Shown here piece by piece: positions 43,005 through 51,953 of a stretch of 64,000 bases of DNA (the stretch's first letter is position 1; every line of letters starts with the position of its first letter). This DNA is from Poriferisphaera corsica (GTDB taxonomy: Bacteria; Planctomycetota; Phycisphaerae; Phycisphaerales; Phycisphaeraceae). The notes beneath the pieces were generated by a model. The model saw only the letters and a program-made list of their open reading frames with translations. It did not search any database and had not been told where the DNA came from. The DNA lies in assembly GCF_007747445.1 (NCBI RefSeq), contig NZ_CP036425.1, positions 2,216,175 through 2,280,174 on the forward strand. The letters run 5' to 3'. The translations under genes were made by a program, and so were the position numbers.

Positions 43005-43769
43005 TTATTTAGCGATTAGCAATTTCTTGCCAAGCTTGTTTTTCCAATCGTTAGAGATGCCGGGATCGGTGATGATGAGGTCGAGTTGATCGATATCGCA
43101 GACTTTGGCGAGTGATTTGCGTCCAAACTTTGAAGAATCCATGAGGCCGATTTTTTGTGTGGCTTGCTGCATCATTTGCTGCTCGACTTCGGCCATACTC
43201 ATGTTGATATTAAACAGTGCGTTGTCGTAGAGACCAGCAAGAGAGAAGAAAAGGATATCGGCGTGAAGTTGTTTGAGGGCGTTAGTTGCGATCGGGCCAA
43301 GCGTGACTTCGGTCCGTGGGTAAAGGACACCACCGATTGAGACGAGCTCGATCTGATCATCGTCTTTGAATTGGTTCGCGATCGATAGACTATTAGTAAC
43401 GATCTGGAGCGGTCGGACTGCGATTTCCTGAGCGGTGTAGATGACGGTAGAGCCGCCGTCGAGGAGAACGGTCATGCCAGGCGAAATGAGCTGAGCGGCG
43501 GTTCGCGCGATGGCTTTTTTCGCAGTGACAGATTCCGTCATGCGTGAGGCGAGTGCGTAGGTGGGCTGAGTGTCGTTTTGGGCATCAATACCTGTGTAGA
43601 TAGCACCAGCTCGTGTTCGCTGAAGATGCCCCTCCTTTTCAAGGGATTCGAGATCACGACGCACGGTGGATGAAGAAACATCGAGTTGCGCGGCGAGATC
43701 GTCAAGCTGCATCGTCTTGTTGCGTCGCAAGAGATCGAGAAGTTTTTGCTGGCGTTCGACAATAAGCAT
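43005..43769 (-). CDS. DeoR-family regulator of the microcompartment operon
   Basis: 254 aa from ATG 43769. N-terminal DeoR winged helix (RQQKLLDLLRRNKTMQLDDL; STVRRDLESLEKEGHLQRTRAGAI, about 6-60) and a DeoRC sugar-phosphate-sensing domain (LLDGGSTVIYTAQEI, IVTNSLSIANQF, SIGGVLYPRTEVTLGP, GLMDSSKFGRKSL). Regulators of this kind answer to phosphorylated sugars. It is the last gene of the microcompartment operon, 92 bp after the dehydrogenase, and a DeoR gene is a regular member of PVM-type loci. Directly repeated CAAAACAT boxes lie just upstream. Confidence 0.88.
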   Translation of the reverse strand: MLIVERQQKLLDLLRRNKTMQLDDLAAQLDVSSSTVRRDLESLEKEGHLQRTRAGAIYTGIDAQNDTQPTYALASRMTESVTAKKAIARTAAQLISPGMTVLLDGGSTVIYTAQEIAVRPLQIVTNSLSIANQFKDDDQIELVSIGGVLYPRTEVTLGPIATNALKQLHADILFFSLAGLYDNALFNINMSMAEVEQQMMQQATQKIGLMDSSKFGRKSLAKVCDIDQLDLIITDPGISNDWKNKLGKKLLIAK

Positions 43770-43829
43770 GGTCTGAACCTTTGATGAGGTGTGCAATGAA
43801 TTAGATTCAAATCATAACATAAAATTGGT

Positions 43830-43847
43830 CAAAACATTGCAAAACAT
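43830..43847. promoter_or_regulatory. Direct repeat CAAAACAT with 10-bp period upstream of deoR-type gene
   Basis: CAAAACAT at 43830-43837 and again at 43840-43847, one helical turn apart. DeoR-family proteins often bind repeated sites on one DNA face, so this is a candidate autoregulatory site. I found no exact copy upstream of pduL. Confidence 0.3.
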
Positions 43848-43888
43848 GTCATAAAAAGCAAGCACTGCAGGATCAAGATCATTGGTGA

Positions 43889-44812
43889 TCAGGTGATTTT
43901 TGACCATGTCTCATCGAGTGCTCGTGCGGAGGCTTGCAGTGCGGCGGTTTCCTTGGGCCAAAGTTCGACTTCGTGAGTACGAATGATGCCTGAGCGACCA
44001 ATGGTTGTGGGAATAGAGAAGCAAGTATCACGAACAGTGTATGGGCCATTGATCTGTGAACTAACTGGGAGAATGGCGTGAGAGTTGAGTGCAATCGCGT
44101 GAATGACCTCGGCAATGGATGCGCCAACGGCATAGCCTGCTCCGCCCTTACGTTTAATGACTTCTGCTCCAGAACCTTTGGTTCGAGTAAAAAGTTCGTT
44201 TTGCTTGTTGGGAGAGAGGATTGAGGTCAGTGAGCATCCAGCAACGGTGGCGGACGACCAGATTGGAACCATTGAATCACCATGCTCGCCGAGTATGAGA
44301 GCTTTGACCTGTTGGGGCGGAAGTTGCTGATCTGCGGCAATCATGGAACGAAAACGTGCTGTATCGAGAACAGTACCGAGGCCTATGACCTGATTAGATG
44401 GCCAATCAAGATAATCGAGCACAAGGCGGGTCAGTATATCAACAGGATTTGAGACAACGAAAATGATCGCGTCATGACGAAGCTTATTGGCGCGAAGGTC
44501 ATCAAGGATAGACTTGAAAATTGACACATTTCGATTAATGAGGTCAAGGCGAGATTCATCTGGCTTGCGGCGCGAGCCAGCGGTGATACATATGACATCA
44601 GCATCTGAGGCGGTATCGGGCGTGCCAGATGTGATGATCTGATTGCCGAGGATTGATGAACCATGAAGAAGGTCAAGGGCTTCACCTGCAGCGAGATCTG
44701 GGTTCGCGTCGATGAGTGAGATTTCACGAACTATTCCTGCGCATTGGAGGGCGAAAGCTGCGTTTGAACCGACACGACCACCTCCGCCGATGATGGATAC
44801 TTTGATTGACAT
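43889..44812 (-). CDS. Lactate/malate dehydrogenase-family NAD enzyme of the microcompartment locus
   Basis: 307 aa. NAD-binding GGGGRVGSNAAFAL (about 9-22), catalytic His177 in GEHGDSMVP, substrate Arg in GTVLDTARFR, and SNPVDILTRL. At the substrate-specificity site (LDH Gln102) the sequence is TAGSRRKPDESRLD, with Arg82 in the Gln position; Arg there is typical of malate dehydrogenases. Enzymes at this place in PVM loci are named lactate dehydrogenase and proposed to recycle NAD inside or beside the shell; the Arg makes a larger or dicarboxylic substrate worth considering. No encapsulation peptide is evident at either end. Confidence 0.85.
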   Translation of the reverse strand: MSIKVSIIGGGGRVGSNAAFALQCAGIVREISLIDANPDLAAGEALDLLHGSSILGNQIITSGTPDTASDADVICITAGSRRKPDESRLDLINRNVSIFKSILDDLRANKLRHDAIIFVVSNPVDILTRLVLDYLDWPSNQVIGLGTVLDTARFRSMIAADQQLPPQQVKALILGEHGDSMVPIWSSATVAGCSLTSILSPNKQNELFTRTKGSGAEVIKRKGGAGYAVGASIAEVIHAIALNSHAILPVSSQINGPYTVRDTCFSIPTTIGRSGIIRTHEVELWPKETAALQASARALDETWSKIT

Positions 44813-44844
44813 ATGGAATCCTCGTACGAATTGAGATAGGCGGA

Positions 44845-45726
44845 TCAGGTATTTTGTAAAGATTTAATTATTTGATCGGTGATGGTTTGAACAAGTGTTT
44901 CCATCTGCTCAGGATCTAACTGCACATTAGGTGATTCTGTGTTCGTGTTGAGAACATTACCGCTGGATTGGTCGCAGACGGCCGTGGCAGGTTGGATACC
45001 AAAGGTTGTTAGGAATTGATCGTTTTCAGCGCCAATGCAGCCGTCGTCTGCACAAGCCACACGATCATCTGCAAAACCGAAGTTCGCTTTAACTTGCAAA
45101 AGATCTTTCATTTCCTGCTGGGAGAGGATATTAATTTTTCCGATCTGCTTGGTGAGCAGGAGCATTCTGCAGTATGCGTCAAGAATTTCGAGGCGGTAGT
45201 AAGCGTCGGTGAGGTCATGGGAGAAAGTGACCGAGCCATGATTCCCCATCAGAACGGTGCTGTTGTTTTCGGTAATGAGCGGTAGAATGCTCTCGGGGAG
45301 TTCCTTGGTGGATGGGAGTGCGTACTTTGCGGTTGGTACTTTTCCAAGAAAAACTTCAGCTTCGGGATGCACACTCTCGGGGAGAGGGACACCGGCGATG
45401 GCAAAAGCGGTTGCATGCGGGGGATGTGAATGGATGACAGCATTGACATCTGGTCGTTTCTTATAGATAGCAAGATGAACTTTGATCTCACTGCTTGGTC
45501 GCCGATCATTTTGATTAGCCTCGACAAGCTTACCATTATCGTCTGTCAGACAGATATCACCGGGTTCAAGAAAACCTTTACTGATTCCGGTGGGCGTAAC
45601 GAGGAAGCGGTTGTCTGAGATTTTGACGGAGTGGTTACCTTCGTTGCCGGCACAGTATTGCCGAGTCCAGATCCTGCGACCTATCTCACAAATATCCTGC
45701 TTTAACTGCCAAACTGACTTGTCCAT
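44845..45726 (-). CDS. Class II aldolase (L-fuculose/rhamnulose-1-phosphate type) with encapsulation peptide
   Basis: 293 aa. The catalytic domain (about 1-215) is a zinc-dependent class II aldolase: GNEGNHSVKI and TPTGISKG phosphate loops, catalytic Glu in PSSEIKVH, zinc His residues in VIHSHPPHATAFA and a distal GNHGSVTFS. The extra 75 residues include a Cys-bearing linker (CADDGCIG) and end in an amphipathic helix DPEQMETLVQTITDQI (about 270-285) that fits a cargo-targeting peptide. In the PVM model it splits fuculose- or rhamnulose-1-phosphate into DHAP and lactaldehyde within the compartment. Confidence 0.9.
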   Translation of the reverse strand: MDKSVWQLKQDICEIGRRIWTRQYCAGNEGNHSVKISDNRFLVTPTGISKGFLEPGDICLTDDNGKLVEANQNDRRPSSEIKVHLAIYKKRPDVNAVIHSHPPHATAFAIAGVPLPESVHPEAEVFLGKVPTAKYALPSTKELPESILPLITENNSTVLMGNHGSVTFSHDLTDAYYRLEILDAYCRMLLLTKQIGKINILSQQEMKDLLQVKANFGFADDRVACADDGCIGAENDQFLTTFGIQPATAVCDQSSGNVLNTNTESPNVQLDPEQMETLVQTITDQIIKSLQNT

Positions 45727-45783
45727 GAGATTCTTCCTGTTCCAATATCTTTCTGTGAACTAATGCTTTTAACTAATCATTGA

Positions 45784-46089
45784 TTAGTTAATGTGCAGTT
45801 CTATTTGATCAAGTATTGCACTTGCGTAGGCATCAACGGGGACGCGCTCTGGATAAAAGGGCATGGTGGCCTCAGCGCCTTCACTAATGGCGATAATTGA
45901 GCCAATACCTGCACCGAGTTCATCATAAACGACGAGCGATTGAGGCATGGGTAATTTTCGAGGCATATGGCTCTCATGATTGTGCAAAGCGTGATTATCA
46001 AAAACATCGACGAGTAAAAGGCGACCAGCTGCCAGTGATGGAAGCTTGCGATCTAGGACACAATGACCGATGACTCTGCCGATACGCAT
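45784..46089 (-). CDS. Microcompartment pentameric vertex protein (BMC-P, EutN/CcmL) 3
   Basis: 101 aa of the EutN/CcmL family that caps shell vertices. MRIGRVIGHCVLDRKLPSL, LLLVDVFD, LVVYDELGAGIGSIIAISEG (about 51-70) and PVDAYASAILDQIEL are the family blocks. A long loop (HALHNHESHMPRKLPMP) follows the second strand. It starts 2 bp after the RpiB-like gene. Third of three distinct BMC-P genes in the operon. Confidence 0.9.
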   Translation of the reverse strand: MRIGRVIGHCVLDRKLPSLAAGRLLLVDVFDNHALHNHESHMPRKLPMPQSLVVYDELGAGIGSIIAISEGAEATMPFYPERVPVDAYASAILDQIELHIN

Positions 46090-46091
46090 GG

Positions 46092-46916
46092 TTATTTATT
46101 GCACCTGCATGGGTGCGATAATTCCTTAAATTTTGATTCAATGGCGTTACTGTTTGGTGTGGTATGCGTGGCCATGTAACGGGTGAGTGATTCAATTTGA
46201 TCAGCTTTGGTATGAGGATACTCGATGATGAGGAGATTAAGTGCTAGATCACGATGTGCTGTTATAAACGATTGAGAGCAGCGTGACACGGCGGCGCGGA
46301 TATTTGCACATTTATTGGCTAAAAGTGCGGCGCTAATGGCGTCTGGCAGAAAGAGGATTGCGTTTTTAATGTCGCCATGTGCAAGTTGCTGCGAAATTTG
46401 TTTAATGAGCTCTGGGAGCTGTGCTGCGGTTTTGGATGGTGCAATAAGTGTGAGCTGGGTACGTAGCTTGGATGTCAATTGTTGCACAACGGGGCAGAAT
46501 CCGTCGATCCAAATGGCGGTCGGCTTCGCAATCGGACTGTTGTCTGTGGATTTGATTTGTTTGGTTTGTCCTGTAGAAGCTGCTGTGAAATTGAGTTGTT
46601 TTTCTTTGATGAAATCTTGTGCAAGGGGGGTGAGCTGCGCATTCGGTGCGAGCTTAATCAAGCGGTTGGGGTACAGTTTAATAAACTGCGCGAGGTTATC
46701 TGCTGTTACGAAACCTGTAAGTTCGGGCTCAGTGATATGTTGTTTAATTTCTTCGTTCGCTCGATGTAGAGGTTGCTGCTTAAACTTTGAAAAATCACCG
46801 GTGCATGTTCCAGCCGGTGGGCTAATTGGTGCATTGACTTGTGACATGCGATCGCTGAGCGCGATCATAACTTGATCAGCGATGAGTTTGACGAGTTGTG
46901 GATCAAAATTACTCAT
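46092..46916 (-). CDS. Microcompartment-associated degenerate RpiB-like protein
   Basis: 274 aa, the least understood gene here. The N-terminal FDPQLVKLIADQVMIAL (about 4-20) looks like a cargo-targeting helix, similar to that of the aldehyde dehydrogenase. A middle segment (about 60-110: FVTADNLAQFIKLYP; LTPLAQDFIKEKQL) resembles a small domain found in other microcompartment accessory proteins. The C-terminal half (about 130-234) matches ribose-5-phosphate isomerase B in LANKCANIRAAV (199-210) and in AHRDLALNLLII, but the RpiB catalytic CGTGIG stretch reads FLPDAIS, so isomerase activity is unlikely. Probably a shell/cargo adaptor or ligand-binding protein. Domain assignment is by eye. Confidence 0.7.
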   Translation of the reverse strand: MSNFDPQLVKLIADQVMIALSDRMSQVNAPISPPAGTCTGDFSKFKQQPLHRANEEIKQHITEPELTGFVTADNLAQFIKLYPNRLIKLAPNAQLTPLAQDFIKEKQLNFTAASTGQTKQIKSTDNSPIAKPTAIWIDGFCPVVQQLTSKLRTQLTLIAPSKTAAQLPELIKQISQQLAHGDIKNAILFLPDAISAALLANKCANIRAAVSRCSQSFITAHRDLALNLLIIEYPHTKADQIESLTRYMATHTTPNSNAIESKFKELSHPCRCNK

Positions 46917-46931
46917 AATGTTTACTCGAAA

Positions 46932-47186
46932 TTAGTCAACGATGCCGATGGTCCACCATCTTGCCGGGCTATGTTTGTCGTGGAGAACTTGCCGAAGACC
47001 GAGACCATCACTGCTGATGATAACGGTGTCGCCGCGACCAGCCCCGAGATAATCAAGAATGAGTACGGGATCGCCTACAGGCTGATTTTTATTGTTGAGT
47101 ATGTCTGCTATCAAAAGCTTTTGTCCATGAAAGGACTCATGTTTGACGGTACTTGTGGCTCGACCTGTGATTCTAGCTAACTGCAT
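46932..47186 (-). CDS. Microcompartment pentameric vertex protein (BMC-P, EutN/CcmL) 2
   Basis: 84 aa, the shortest of the three vertex proteins. MQLARITGRATSTVKHESFHG, GQKLLIADI, LILDYLGAGRGDTVIISSDG and the closing TIGIVD are the EutN pattern. It lies between the aldehyde dehydrogenase and RpiB-like genes. Confidence 0.92.
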   Translation of the reverse strand: MQLARITGRATSTVKHESFHGQKLLIADILNNKNQPVGDPVLILDYLGAGRGDTVIISSDGLGLRQVLHDKHSPARWWTIGIVD

Positions 47187-47207
47187 GTTTAACCCTGTTT
47201 CATAACA

Positions 47208-48626
47208 TCAAACGATGCGTAATGCATTGCTGACACTAAAGCGACGGAATCGAGTAAAGGTAAGTGGATTGGTGATACCTTCCCCTGTTGGTGTAGCGAT
47301 CGAATAACTGGGATAGCCCTCACCACCTACGCCTAGCCCGGCTGTACACGGTCCATTAGCAACGAAAATGGTTGTGTTCATGACACGCCCCATACGAGTA
47401 ATGCGTTGTAGATTATTTGAATGGATGATGGCAGTGTGGCCAAATCCATGCTCGTGTTTAACCGCTAATTGGAGGGCTTGCTCGAAATCTCGAACTCTTA
47501 CGAACGGAACAAAGGGCATCATCTGCTCTTCACAAACGAATGGGCTATCTTCGAGAGTCTCGCCAAACAGAAGTTCAACACTGGGTGGTACATTGAAACC
47601 TGCAAGTTTGCCGAGGATTTGAGGATCCTTGCCAACACATTCTTTGGTCACGGCATGATGATCTTTGACCCAATTAAATGCTACTTTAGTTAGCGTATCG
47701 ATTTCTTTATTATTCAACCGCAGCGCACCGTTTTTCTCCATTGCTTTCATCATTGGATCAAACACTGAATCGACGACAAATACTTCCTTTTCCCCGATAC
47801 ATAGGAGGTTATTGTCGAATGCTGCACCGGCGATGATTGACTTTGCCGCGTTGTTCAGATCCGCTGTTTCGTCGATAACAACAGGCGGATTACCCGGACC
47901 TGCAACGATGGCTCGTTTGGGCTGTTTCATGGCAGCACGCGCAACGGCAGGACCACCAGTCGCAACAAGCATTGGGATGCGAGGATGCTGAAAAACTTCT
48001 TCAGCGGTACGTAGCGTTGGCGGATTGATCACACAGACAAGTGGCTCGATTTGATACTCATCATACACCGCTTTGTTGATTGCAGCGGCAGCAATCGCTG
48101 CTGATTTGGCTCCAGAGGGATGGGCGTTGACAATCATAGAGTTACCGGCAGCGATCATATTTATGGCATTGGCGAGCATGGTTGGGATGGAGTGAGTGAC
48201 GGGCGTGATGACTCCAATGATACCCCAAGGAGCAGCTTCGTCGAGCCCGATACCCTCATCACCACTATGTGCAATCGTTTTGAGAAACTCAGTTGCGGGA
48301 ACATCTGATACCAACTTGAGCTTATCGATTTTGTGAACCAAACGGCCAACTTTGGTTTCTTCTAGTTCGAAGCGACCCCAATTTTCAGCATTTTTGTTGG
48401 CAAGCTTTTTAATGAGATCGCAAATATCGCCGCGTATAACTAAACCTGCTTTAACAAGCTGTTGTTGTGATCGAGCGGCAACATCTACAGCCTCGTCGAC
48501 TGTTGTAAAATGGCCTAAAGAAGCATCTTCCGTTTGCAGCGATTGATTAGATTGCGTCGTGCCATTCAGTCGGTTCATCACCTCTGAAACAACTGTTTGA
48601 ATAAGCTGTGCATCAAGCGTAGCCAT
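47208..48626 (-). CDS. CoA-acylating aldehyde dehydrogenase (PduP/EutE-like) with N-terminal targeting peptide
   Basis: 472 aa. Converts an aldehyde, CoA and NAD to acyl-CoA. N-terminal helix DAQLIQTVVSEVMNRLN (about 5-21) and a linker precede the ALDH fold. Catalytic Cys276 is in FDNNLLCIGEK; AGPGNPPVVID, APWGIIGVITPVTH and the C-terminal TAGLGVGGEGYPSYSIATPT are family features of PduP/EutE enzymes. Within this operon it would oxidise lactaldehyde to lactyl-CoA. Flanked on both sides by BMC-P genes. Confidence 0.94.
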   Translation of the reverse strand: MATLDAQLIQTVVSEVMNRLNGTTQSNQSLQTEDASLGHFTTVDEAVDVAARSQQQLVKAGLVIRGDICDLIKKLANKNAENWGRFELEETKVGRLVHKIDKLKLVSDVPATEFLKTIAHSGDEGIGLDEAAPWGIIGVITPVTHSIPTMLANAINMIAAGNSMIVNAHPSGAKSAAIAAAAINKAVYDEYQIEPLVCVINPPTLRTAEEVFQHPRIPMLVATGGPAVARAAMKQPKRAIVAGPGNPPVVIDETADLNNAAKSIIAGAAFDNNLLCIGEKEVFVVDSVFDPMMKAMEKNGALRLNNKEIDTLTKVAFNWVKDHHAVTKECVGKDPQILGKLAGFNVPPSVELLFGETLEDSPFVCEEQMMPFVPFVRVRDFEQALQLAVKHEHGFGHTAIIHSNNLQRITRMGRVMNTTIFVANGPCTAGLGVGGEGYPSYSIATPTGEGITNPLTFTRFRRFSVSNALRIV

Positions 48627-48656
48627 AGATTATTTCCCGATTAATAGCGGCTTAAA

Positions 48657-48971
48657 CTAAGCCAATTTACAACCTGCCACAACAGCCTCGTCAACAATAC
48701 CCACAACAACAGCATCAGTGGGAAGATTACGACAGCCTTCGGCGAGACGTGCACTGGAGCCTTGCGTGATTAGAACGATTTGCCCTTCCCCTGCACCGAT
48801 ACTGTCCAACGCGACTATGGCCCGTCCTGTCACAGAGAAGCCGGATGCTGTATTGGTTGCTGAAGTGGCGTAATCTACTCTCAAAGGCTCAACAACCAAA
48901 AGCTTTTGCCCGGAGATTGAGGGGTCTTTGGCAGTAGCGATGACGTGCCCTTTTACTTTGCCTAAAAACAT
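48657..48971 (-). CDS. Microcompartment pentameric vertex protein (BMC-P, EutN/CcmL) 1
   Basis: 104 aa from ATG 48971 (GAG 7 nt upstream; a GTG four codons earlier is in frame). MFLGKVKGHVIATAKDPSIS, GQKLLVVEPL, IVALDSIGAGEGQIVLITQG and VVVGIVDEA are classical EutN/CcmL blocks. It is the closest of the three to canonical EutN. Confidence 0.93.
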   Translation of the reverse strand: MFLGKVKGHVIATAKDPSISGQKLLVVEPLRVDYATSATNTASGFSVTGRAIVALDSIGAGEGQIVLITQGSSARLAEGCRNLPTDAVVVGIVDEAVVAGCKLA

Positions 48972-49039
48972 GACTTGTCTCACTTATGCTATTTGCACAG
49001 GATGCAAGGTAAACCCACCGACAAGTGCGCGGCTGTTAA

Positions 49040-49303
49040 TCACATTTTGCCAACGTCTTCGTTGGGACGTGCGATAACATGGACACTGACGACTTCACCT
49101 ACTCGACGTGCAGCCTCAGCACCAGCATCAATGGCGGCTTTAACGGCTGCAACATCACCTTCAAGTGAAATTGCGCAGAGTCCGCTGCCAACTTTATCCT
49201 GACGAACGAATTTGACATCAGCAGCTTTAAGCGCGGCGTCGGTCGCTTCTATTGCGGGGATAAGTCCTTTCGTTTCGATCATTCCGAGAGCTTTGGAAGC
49301 CAT
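49040..49303 (-). CDS. Microcompartment hexameric shell protein (BMC-H) C
   Basis: 87 aa from ATG 49303 (GGAG 7 nt upstream). Single Pf00936-type BMC domain: [20 protein letters not shown], pore loop [35 protein letters not shown] and VIARPNEDV. The pore carries a Cys right after the GSGL, which differs from the two other hexamers. It forms facets of the shell. Confidence 0.95.
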
Positions 49304-49322
49304 AAAATACTCCAATCAATGA

Positions 49323-50513
49323 TTAGGTAGTTTGTTTGTTCAATACTTGCACGGTTTGCCGCGCTACGATCAATTCTTCGTTTGTTGGTAAAACCCATAG
49401 CTGCGTTTGGCTGTTTGGCGAATCTATTCGAGATTCATGCTGACCATGAGTTTGCTCATTCTTATTGACATCGATATGTATATTCAAGAAATCAAGGTTT
49501 TTGAGAATGAGCTTACGTATGTACGAGCTGTACTGACCGATACCCGCAGTGAATGTGATTGCATCGACACCGCCAAGATTGAGTATGTAAGCTCCTAAAT
49601 AATGACGGCAAGATTCTACGAATGCATCCACAGCCAATTGAGAGCGTTCATGCCCATGCTCTGCCTGTTGAAGCACATCACGCAAGTCTGAGCTGATACC
49701 ACTAATGCCAAGCAGCCCACCATTCTTACTAAGATCATGGTAGATCTCTTTCTCAGTAAATCCTTGCTGCTTAAGAGCCAAGACGGCGTAAGGATCAAAA
49801 TCACCCACACGATTATTATGGAAGACGCCTGTCTGTGGCGTTGTTCCAAAGCTATTGGCAACACTTTTTCCATTCTCTATAGCACAAATAGAACAGGAGC
49901 CACCAAGATGCAGATTAATGATCTTTCGGTTTTTTGGATCAATCTGTTGCATGCGTGAAGCGATATAAGCATGACTCGCGCCATGAAAACCATAGCGTTT
50001 AATCCCAAATTTCTCATACCATACATATGGAACTGCATATATTTGGCGAGCTAATGGGATCGTTTGATGAAAGGCTGTCTCAAAAGCTGCGACCTGCTGT
50101 GCATTGGGCAAGCTTAGTTGAAACGACTTCATTGCTGCGATATACGGTGGATTGTGGGCAGGTGCAAGTGGACTGACCTGCTGCATAATATCATGTACGT
50201 GTTGATCAACTTCAACAGCCCTGTTGATCGAACCGCCATGCACAGCTTTGAAGCCTATTGCACTAATATCTTCTATCGAATTGATAATACCCAACTCGAT
50301 GAGTTGATCTAAATGCAGGTCAACCGCAACAGAGTGATCATCCAAATTTGCCTTGCCCGACAGATCGTGATGGTTAGCTTTCACAGTCCACGTACAACCG
50401 CCCTGCCCGATACGATCCGCATCGCCCGTTGCAAGGACACTTTCATTACGGCTCATGTCAAAGAGCTTGTACTTGAAACTGGTTGAGCCAAGATTGACTA
50501 CCAAAACGATCAT
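49323..50513 (-). CDS. ackA: Acetate kinase-family enzyme
   Basis: 396 aa. ASKHA acetate/propionate kinase: LVVNLGSTSFKYKLFD (about 3-18), FETAFHQTIP (catalytic Asp/Glu region), RYGFHGASHAYI (about 174-185), NLHLGGSCSICAIENGKSV, and ITFTAGIGQYSSYIRK. It makes ATP from the acyl phosphate supplied by PduL, here probably lactyl or acetyl phosphate. Unlike PduL, the aldehyde dehydrogenase and aldolase it has no visible targeting peptide, so it may act outside the shell. Lies between two BMC-H genes. Confidence 0.93.
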   Translation of the reverse strand: MIVLVVNLGSTSFKYKLFDMSRNESVLATGDADRIGQGGCTWTVKANHHDLSGKANLDDHSVAVDLHLDQLIELGIINSIEDISAIGFKAVHGGSINRAVEVDQHVHDIMQQVSPLAPAHNPPYIAAMKSFQLSLPNAQQVAAFETAFHQTIPLARQIYAVPYVWYEKFGIKRYGFHGASHAYIASRMQQIDPKNRKIINLHLGGSCSICAIENGKSVANSFGTTPQTGVFHNNRVGDFDPYAVLALKQQGFTEKEIYHDLSKNGGLLGISGISSDLRDVLQQAEHGHERSQLAVDAFVESCRHYLGAYILNLGGVDAITFTAGIGQYSSYIRKLILKNLDFLNIHIDVNKNEQTHGQHESRIDSPNSQTQLWVLPTNEELIVARQTVQVLNKQTT

Positions 50514-50541
50514 GCTTCTATCTTCCTAAACTATTGGCTAC

Positions 50542-50802
50542 TTAGAAGCTAGCGACGAGTGCATCGTGTGGACGAGCAATCACGTGAGCTGCGACTAATT
50601 CGCCTACTCGGCCTGCTGCAGCAGCACCTGCATCGACAGCAGCCTTAACAGAGCCAACATCACCCTTAACAATGACTGTGACGAAGGCGCCACCAATTGC
50701 GATTGTTTTCTCAAGCTTGACGTCAGCTGCTTTAAGCATGGCATCGGTCGCCTCAACAAGGCCAGTCTGCCCTTTAGTTTCAATCATGCCGAGAGCATTC
50801 AT
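50542..50802 (-). CDS. Microcompartment hexameric shell protein (BMC-H) B
   Basis: 86 aa from ATG 50802 (GGAG 7 nt upstream). BMC domain with [20 protein letters not shown], pore loop [35 protein letters not shown] and [10 protein letters not shown]. The pore loop IGGAF lacks the KVGSG of the other two hexamers, so its pore is probably different in size or charge. Confidence 0.95.
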
Positions 50803-50850
50803 GATAATTCTCCAATTAATCACTTGTATTTAAGTGTTTTGTATGATTAT

Positions 50851-51147
50851 TTACTTAGATGCGGTCGCTTTTCTTGGCTTAGGCATGATGGCAACAAGCT
50901 CATCGTGTGGGCGTGGGATGACGTGAATACCAACGACTTCACCGATCTTACCGGCCGCTGATGCTCCCGCATCAACCGCTGCCTTCACAGCGGCAACATC
51001 TCCACTCACGAAGCCTGTCACAAGGCCTGAGCCAACTTTATCCCATCCGATCATGTCGACGTTAGCTGCTTTGAGCATCGCGTCACAAGCTTCGATAAGG
51101 GGGACGATGCCCTTTGTTTCGATCATGCCTATTGCTGGTTGAGCCAT
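50851..51147 (-). CDS. Microcompartment hexameric shell protein (BMC-H) A with basic tail
   Basis: 98 aa. BMC domain with [20 protein letters not shown], pore loop [35 protein letters not shown] and [10 protein letters not shown], followed by an extra Lys/Arg-rich tail ([11 protein letters not shown]). The pore loop is close to that of hexamer C. A second gene of this pore type suggests a duplication. Confidence 0.95.
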
Positions 51148-51200
51148 GTTAGAATCTCCATTAACGCATAGATAAAAATCACGAACGATTAATTCGTGTG

Positions 51201-51878
51201 TTATTTCAATAGCTCGATACGTGATGCAGAAGGTAAATGACAGGCATTACCTTCATCGGTATCGATATGTACTTCCAGTTTGACTTTCGGGTGCTGCCTG
51301 ACCAGAACACGATCAAAGACAACCCCGCAAGGGCCATCTATTTTTAGTTGCATGTAATCACCATCATGCACACCATAGTGATCACAGTCTGATTGGTGCA
51401 TGTGAACATGTCGCTCAGCTCGAATGACACCACGATCCATGTTCAATGCGCCATGTGGGCCAACAAGAACACATCCTGGCGTGCCATCATGATCACCACT
51501 GGTACGTAAAGGAAGATCAATTCCCATATAAACACCGTCTGTGTATGAAAGCTCGACCTGCGAATAATTTCGTGTCGGCCCCAGAATGCGAATACCGGGA
51601 ATAAGTCGATTGCGTGGACCGATGAGATTCACCACTTGCTCAGAAGCAAACTCACCATCCTGATACAGATCTTTGAATTTGGTCAACTGCGATCCGGGAC
51701 CGAAGAGAATTTCCAAATCTTGTTGACTGACATGAACGTGGCGAGCCGAAACATTGACAACGAGTGGGTTCGGGCCACCGTTATGTGAAAGAGGCCTGAT
51801 GATCACAGGAGAATTACCAGTAAATCTTTCCTGTAAGGATTTTCTGACCATCTGCTCGATGACAGCTCTATCAACCAT
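51201..51878 (-). CDS. pduL: PduL-type phosphate acyltransferase with N-terminal targeting peptide
   Basis: 225 aa from ATG 51878 (GGGA 7 nt upstream, and a plausible promoter start near 51947 leaves a normal leader); ATG 51938 would add 20 residues. The first helix [19 protein letters not shown] is a likely encapsulation peptide. Two zinc-binding repeats follow: [18 protein letters not shown] and [20 protein letters not shown], with [17 protein letters not shown] and [11 protein letters not shown]. It converts acyl-CoA and phosphate to acyl phosphate and CoA, recycling CoA inside the compartment. First gene of the operon. Confidence 0.94.
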
Positions 51879-51953
51879 TTCCGAATCCCGTCTGTTTACG
51901 GCCTGACTAGCAGTAAAACTATAAGGCCTAGCACCCATTTTTCTTGTCGTCTA

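Follow-up and report, generated by a model that had tools for sequence, protein, structure and literature searches.

The protein termed X here (274 amino acids, ATG start), which is encoded at positions 46092..46916 on the minus strand of the analysed 64,000-nucleotide stretch of DNA (the window), probably acts as a dedicated linker between shell and cargo of the PVM microcompartment. The probability of this reading, which is drawn from sequence comparison, a structural model and analogy to known linkers, is put at roughly 0.6. X is composed of a putative encapsulation peptide (EP) helix, a docking module and a pseudo-RpiB domain. An isomerase shape without the active site, in combination with a module of known linkers, indicates that X is probably an assembly linker and not an enzyme. 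The scaffold role considered in the preliminary description of this gene is made more likely by the module, which is common to EutQ, EutT and PduM.

Gene context and distribution of X

The X gene is situated between two genes for BMC-P (EutN/CcmL), separated by 15 bases from the upstream gene (46932..47186, E 1.8e-21) and by 2 bases from the downstream gene (45784..46089, E 7e-17). All genes of the operon (43005-51938) lie on the minus strand. It starts with a PduL phosphotransacylase (51201..51938), followed by two BMC-H genes (50851-51147 and 50542-50823), an acetate kinase (49323-50513), a further BMC-H gene (49040-49315), a third BMC-P gene (48657..48983), a CoA-acylating-type aldehyde dehydrogenase (ALDH, 47208..48626) with an EP-like N-terminus and the BMC-P gene directly upstream of X; the three BMC-H genes were recognised by eye. 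Behind X, the downstream BMC-P gene is followed by a class II aldolase (44845..45726), a lactate/malate dehydrogenase (LDH, 43889..44812) and a DeoR-family regulator (43005..43796). PVM loci are defined in PMC4207490, the accessible text of which gives the class II aldolase as their signature enzyme. With BMC-H, BMC-P, aldolase, ALDH, PduL, LDH, acetate kinase and DeoR all present, the locus is a PVM-type (fucose/rhamnose) microcompartment operon. Two ordinary RpiBs, encoded elsewhere in the genome, score 175.7 and 175.4 bits, versus 22.9 for X.

A first scan of genome contigs gave little, and the profile version performed better. X was found in 27 of 101 relatives (E <= 1.2e-12) and BMC-P in 34, among them all 27 with X. 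Of the seven relatives with BMC-P and without X, four have an SPU-type locus containing DeoC, and in one the contig breaks off at the slot. The remaining two (G038 and G043, genus g19) have a PVM locus in which the two BMC-P genes adjoin and X is missing. Weak matches (E >= 8e-4) in eight genomes were set aside, being probably ordinary RpiBs. Two of these matches (L045 and L047) and a second weak match in genome G006 (L046) are all ordinary RpiBs. In each of the 23 loci with both flanks visible (the window and 22 others) X is flanked by BMC-P on both sides. Three more X loci, cut by contig ends, fall outside this count, and the partial sequences L042, L043, L077, L078 and L084 fall outside some of the counts given here.

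For a draw across the phylum, comprising 392 planctomycetal genomes, a genome was taken as PVM-bearing if it contained an ALDH at E <= 1e-148, a threshold picked after viewing the list. By this measure 43 of the 392 genomes have a PVM-like ALDH, and X is present in 41 of these 43 if deep homologues are counted, 26 being found by the first profile and another 15 when a deeper profile was run on the slot. In one locus (L222) X measures only 118 amino acids, and in genome G201 the module lies in a 300-amino acid frame elsewhere in the genome (G201:C1:727280), which is a candidate X. The PVM genome G449 yielded no X or module better than E 0.03.

In genus g150, X (G184:C7, L129) or at least the module (G201) is retained far from the PVM ALDH gene. 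A sub-group of the Phycisphaerae has 11 PVM loci (L051, L052, L054, L056, L059, L064, L066, L072, L073, L076 and L078) with no BMC-P found in the stretch; 10 of the 11 genomes have BMC-P genes elsewhere. In four stretches of the same sub-group (L200-L203) three BMC-P genes lie together, with no PVM enzyme matches in the stretch.

The pseudo-RpiB domain

In the preliminary description X was taken for a degenerate RpiB-like protein, a view that fits both the domain matches within the family and the leading structural matches. X of the window matches PF02502 with E 2e-4 and 21.7 bits, below the curated cut-off of 24.7 bits, and 20 of 24 family members match this domain at E <= 0.1 (best 3.5e-7). 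A single-sequence search of the PDB with X gave a best E of 0.39, and a profile of the X family reached E. coli RpiB in the PDB with E 0.0011. The AF2 model, built from 34 sequences with a mean pLDDT of 84, displays a helix at residues 6-26, a small domain of mixed secondary structure at 66-112, a Rossmann-like part at about 130-250 and a C-terminal helix. The pseudo-RpiB domain (aa 130-250, 46167..46529, minus strand) and the C-terminal helix (aa 257-267, 46116..46148, minus strand) are delimited from this model. Comparison of the predicted structure with RpiB, a check named in the preliminary description, found the RpiB fold with both Foldseek and VIA. In the Foldseek search against the PDB, RpiB/LacAB-type isomerases occupy the first 44 rows (best E 1.1e-8). 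With VIA, Giardia RpiB aligned over 121 residues at Z 15.4 and rmsd 2.3; outside the RpiB/LacAB-type group the highest Z was 9.1. The resemblance of X to RpiB thus exceeds chance. A cupin domain had no match in X in the domain scan; the RpiB fold is found instead.

Despite having the same fold as the RpiB/LacAB isomerases (PF02502), X is without their active site. This was seen in an alignment of 37 Phycisphaerae-type X rows, 18 deeper X rows, 21 SPU-type RpiBs and 4 ordinary RpiBs. Throughout the 37 Phycisphaerae rows the catalytic Cys is replaced by Val, Leu or Ala (in the window by Leu190), nothing aligns with the Asp-His pair, and the His of HND as well as the His of GRH are replaced. In the loop of the CGTGIG type the first Gly is gone in all 37 rows, and the two further Gly persist in 3 and 2 rows. 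Two phosphate-site Arg, which all ordinary and SPU rows share, are each kept in 1 of 37 rows, and a less conserved neighbouring Arg in 25. X of the window contains none of these elements, neither Cys/Asp nor Asp-His pair, His of HND, glycine loop or the two Arg. Moreover, its C-terminal helix occupies the position of the RpiB stretch GRHxxRR without containing it (A258, I259, S261, K262). Kept in all 37 rows are N201, R207 and N227.

For the Phycisphaerae members, model and alignment hence bear out the earlier view of an isomerase fold devoid of the isomerase active site. The RpiB signature LANKCANIRAAV is present in the C-terminal half as quoted, and the reported change of CGTGIG to FLPDAIS agrees with the alignment, which places L190-P-D-A-I-S195 at the CGTGIG position. 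The AHRDLALNLL block, however, can not be upheld as a retained RpiB signature, since D223-L224-A225 stand at the HND positions and, of ANVL, N227 alone is retained.

Terminal helix, docking module and origin

The N-terminal helix of the AF2 model (aa 6-26, 46839..46901, minus strand) is a putative EP resembling that of the ALDH. When residues 2-26 of X were compared with the N-terminus of the cognate ALDH, the score was reached by 2 of 5000 shuffles; comparisons with the termini of PduL and aldolase were not significant (978 and 780 of 5000 shuffles). Judged by its hydrophobic moment, the helix is not separated from control segments, and its amphipathicity is not distinctive. When a helix profile, built from 47 members, was searched against 455 ORFs of five stretches (EUT, PDU and GRM), its best match was the N-terminus of K-12 EutE, a weak one (E 0.029). 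For Salmonella EutE, the accessible part of PMC12487888 reports that deletion of residues 2-21 abolishes its targeting. The helix region is present in 47 of 52 full-length X members and missing in five (L079-L083). The N-terminal cargo peptide claimed earlier is therefore supported in its likeness to the ALDH helix and has to be qualified as usual, not universal. Behind the helix follow a linker motif, PPAGTCTGDFSKF (aa 33-45, 46782..46820, minus strand), and a linker of low pLDDT (46-60) in the model. The motif, PPxGxCTGDYSKF, occurs in many Phycisphaerae X proteins and not in the deeper ones; its form C-T/D-G-D/T-Y/F is found in 23 of 52 members. A predicted terminal helix like a cargo EP, carried on a flexible linker, marks X as a putative EP-bearing lumen protein. 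An equation of this helix with H3/H4 of EutQ was tried and found unsupported (312 of 3000 shuffles reach the score).

Residues 66-112 (46581..46721, minus strand) constitute a separate unit within X, a docking module of about 47 residues with the order beta-alpha-beta-beta-alpha-beta. The preliminary description missed this module as well as the linker motif. Forty X module segments were scanned against 18,950 NCBIfam models and against Pfam. In NCBIfam, eut_hyp was matched by 23 of the 40 segments (best 1.6e-6), EutT by 7 (best 0.0038), two PduM models by 5 and 1 (E <= 1) and seven further families by at most 3 each. In Pfam, PDU_like was matched by 4 segments and eight other families by at most 2 each. 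The link to PduM derives from these NCBIfam and Pfam models, not from individual PduM proteins; full-length X gave no match to PduM (TIGR04493) at E <= 0.1 among 24 members. Searched against the 455 ORFs, the module profile had its six best matches in BMC accessory proteins throughout: a GRM and a PDU flavoprotein (at the C-terminus), an EutQ-family cupin, two proteins of the EutT type and an 88-residue stand-alone protein. The EutQ-family cupin of Enterococcus reached 2.6e-5. K-12 EutQ matched weakly (E 0.024 among the 455 ORFs, hhalign probability 52%, EutQ 2-45 aligned), which counts against the linker reading.

NCBIfam scans located the module at about 160-206 of eut_hyp in the flavoproteins, EutT, the EutQ-type cupin and a deep X member, and the module region of a PDU flavoprotein matches the C-terminal part of the PduM models. 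By these profile comparisons the module is homologous to that in EutT, EutQ-type cupins, PduM, BMC flavoproteins and the RpiB of SPU loci. In its own genome X is the only strong match of the module (next E 0.24), and among 61 relatives the module occurs in 21 genomes, always in X, with one extra weak match (E 0.004). The module alone had no significant Foldseek match in the PDB (best E 0.43).

An X-like protein with intact RpiB layout emerged from the phylum search in an SPU-type locus (L133:8470-9183, G104). A further search yielded many ordinary RpiBs, and from its matches twenty more SPU loci (L180-L199) were chosen, those reaching into the N-terminal part. BMC-P lies beside RpiB in 16 of these 20 loci and DeoC downstream of it in 19, the exception (L199) ending there; 19 of the 20 RpiBs match the module, one only at E 0.03. 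In all 21 SPU RpiBs the loop Cys is replaced by Asp, possibly a different general base, and the Asp-His pair, the HND-type His and the arginines are kept. Like X, the SPU RpiB combines the module with an RpiB-fold domain; often it also has a helix-like stretch at the N-terminus, and it is usually found beside BMC-P genes and upstream of an aldolase. It retains Asp-His pair, HND-type His, glycine loop and arginines, of which X has almost none. Due to the shared architecture and gene slot, X most likely descends from an SPU-type lumen RpiB by loss of catalysis, a direction of change argued by parsimony, not by a tree, since a tree of three groups (X, SPU and ordinary RpiB) with so long a branch for X would leave the direction undisclosed.

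Linker function and alternatives

As a linker, X would join the enzyme core with its N-terminal helix and dock with its module on the shell from the inside, in the manner of EutQ H1/H2, and the pseudo-isomerase domain would oligomerise. RpiB is a dimer. Oligomerisation would render each X multivalent, and we propose that core and shell are bridged in this way. The closest precedent is EutQ of Salmonella, for which the accessible text of PMC12487888 describes residues 1-99 as linking shell and cargo: residues 9-41 attach to the shell, cargo peptides such as EutC 1-20 (Kd about 6-8 uM) attach to residues 62-99, and the cupin at the C-terminus forms dimers. Equating the module with the shell-binding region of EutQ presupposes the same numbering in Salmonella and K-12 EutQ. 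EutQ shares with X the module and a helical region and has a dimerising C-terminal domain of its own, a cupin with reported acetate kinase activity, in which it differs from X. The order of parts differs as well, since in EutQ the module comes first, at the N-terminus, and the cargo-binding helices follow. According to the same text, EutQs of Gram-positive EUT loci are without the first three helices, hence EutQ-type linking is not universal. PduM resembles X in its N-terminal helix, which targets PduM to the core (PMC12108088, accessible text), and the module segments of X match PduM models; unlike X, PduM has no RpiB domain. Loss of PduM partly separates core and shell, as stated in the accessible portions of PMC9132943 and PMC12108088. 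Non-functional enzyme domains as scaffolds were proposed earlier for the second ALDH in GRM1 loci (PMC4207490, accessible text). In the PVM loci of G038, G043 and G449 X is missing, so that it can not be indispensable.

It is unlikely that X is instead a non-catalytic metabolite sensor, whose remodelled RpiB pocket binds a sugar phosphate of the pathway or an acyl compound and thereby influences assembly or the activity of enzymes. The domain is constrained, with N201 and N227 invariant in all 52 X members and W136, C141, R207 and E232 in all 34 Phycisphaerae members. The invariance of W136, C141 and E232 leaves room for a ligand, and the ancestor of X presumably bound a sugar phosphate. However, most deep members do not share W136, C141 and E232, and the glycine loop as well as the two conserved Arg are largely lost. 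That X has acquired a new enzymatic activity on its RpiB fold, with lactaldehyde or a ketose phosphate as substrate in the lumen, appears rather improbable. The low substrate specificity reported for a number of RpiBs (PMC4207490, accessible text) and the motifs WWxDGxC and AxCxANRC, conserved in Phycisphaerae members, would be in line with such an activity, but both motifs differ in the deep members, and with aldolase, acylating ALDH, PduL, LDH and acetate kinase already in the locus there is no obvious missing step.

That X is mere cargo or a remnant of the SPU-type lumen RpiB, devoid of an important role, is very improbable. X evolves fast (24-46% identity to relatives, its neighbours mostly having more than 50% in the same loci), has been lost in three PVM genomes and is shortened to 118 residues in L222. 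Yet seven of eight close pairs have a dN/dS of 0.10-0.21; the remaining pair, in which changes are few, has 0.52. By these values purifying selection acts on X, and a pseudogene was rejected. Moreover, X is present in 41 of 43 PVM genomes and is kept in G184, where it has no PVM gene as neighbour and the ALDH lies on a different contig. Least probable of all is a function of X as chaperone or partner of the vertex protein BMC-P. It would agree with the BMC-P genes on both sides in 23 of 23 loci and with module proteins of other BMC loci, some of which also adjoin an EutN/BMC-P gene, but in the 11 sub-group loci with no BMC-P in the stretch X is still accompanied by the enzymes.

Beyond the linker reading for X itself, it is conceivable, though we would tend to bet against it, that the module of about 47 residues marks shell-cargo linkers of several metabolosome types on unrelated carriers, and that such linkers arise repeatedly from carrier enzymes that become inactive, RpiB having yielded X in PVM and a flavoprotein perhaps PduM and eut_hyp. 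Equally tentative is the set of carriers in such a scheme: cupin (EutQ), adenosyltransferase (EutT), flavoprotein (PDU/GRM) and RpiB (SPU). The eut_hyp family (TIGR02536) and the BMC flavoproteins of PDU and GRM loci carry the module like X, in their case at the C-terminus. The carrier is a flavoprotein in the latter and perhaps a diverged one in eut_hyp, as opposed to the RpiB fold in X. Since the eut_hyp model covers residues 61-231 of the Ilyobacter flavoprotein, eut_hyp and perhaps PduM may be diverged flavoproteins. Against the linker reading of X it also counts that EutT, which has the module, is an annotated enzyme; the module may thus signify no more than an association with lumen or shell.

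In the accessible literature on PVM, EutQ, EutT, PduM, RpiB and pseudoenzymes no description of X or of the shared module was found, nor one of cargo loading in PVM; the linkers described there belong to carboxysomes, PDU and EUT. The accessible text of a 2025 paper presents PduM as being without known sequence homology outside Pdu organelles. If X is a linker, assembly of the PVM compartment becomes testable with one gene, and a shared module would unite EutQ and PduM, which have so far been treated separately. Such a module would also permit prediction of the linker from sequence alone in PDU, GRM, EUT, SPU and PVM loci and provide a small tag for building synthetic compartments.

The module was also seen in other surroundings. 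Flavoproteins encoded between PduL and BMC-P in PDU/GRM loci carry it at the C-terminus (L138:9567-10262, L140:12628-13335, L139:9780-10376), and that of L140 has a weakly EP-like N-terminal stretch (E 0.069). The 88-residue stand-alone module protein (L139:10633-10899) is encoded directly 3' of BMC-P in a Cetobacterium eut locus, the cupin protein of which had no module match. In another BMC locus, of genome G154, a 205-residue protein adjoining BMC-P (L234:2615-3232, minus strand) contains an N-terminal module (E 1.4e-8), followed by a helix-like stretch and, as judged by eye, an ACT-like domain.
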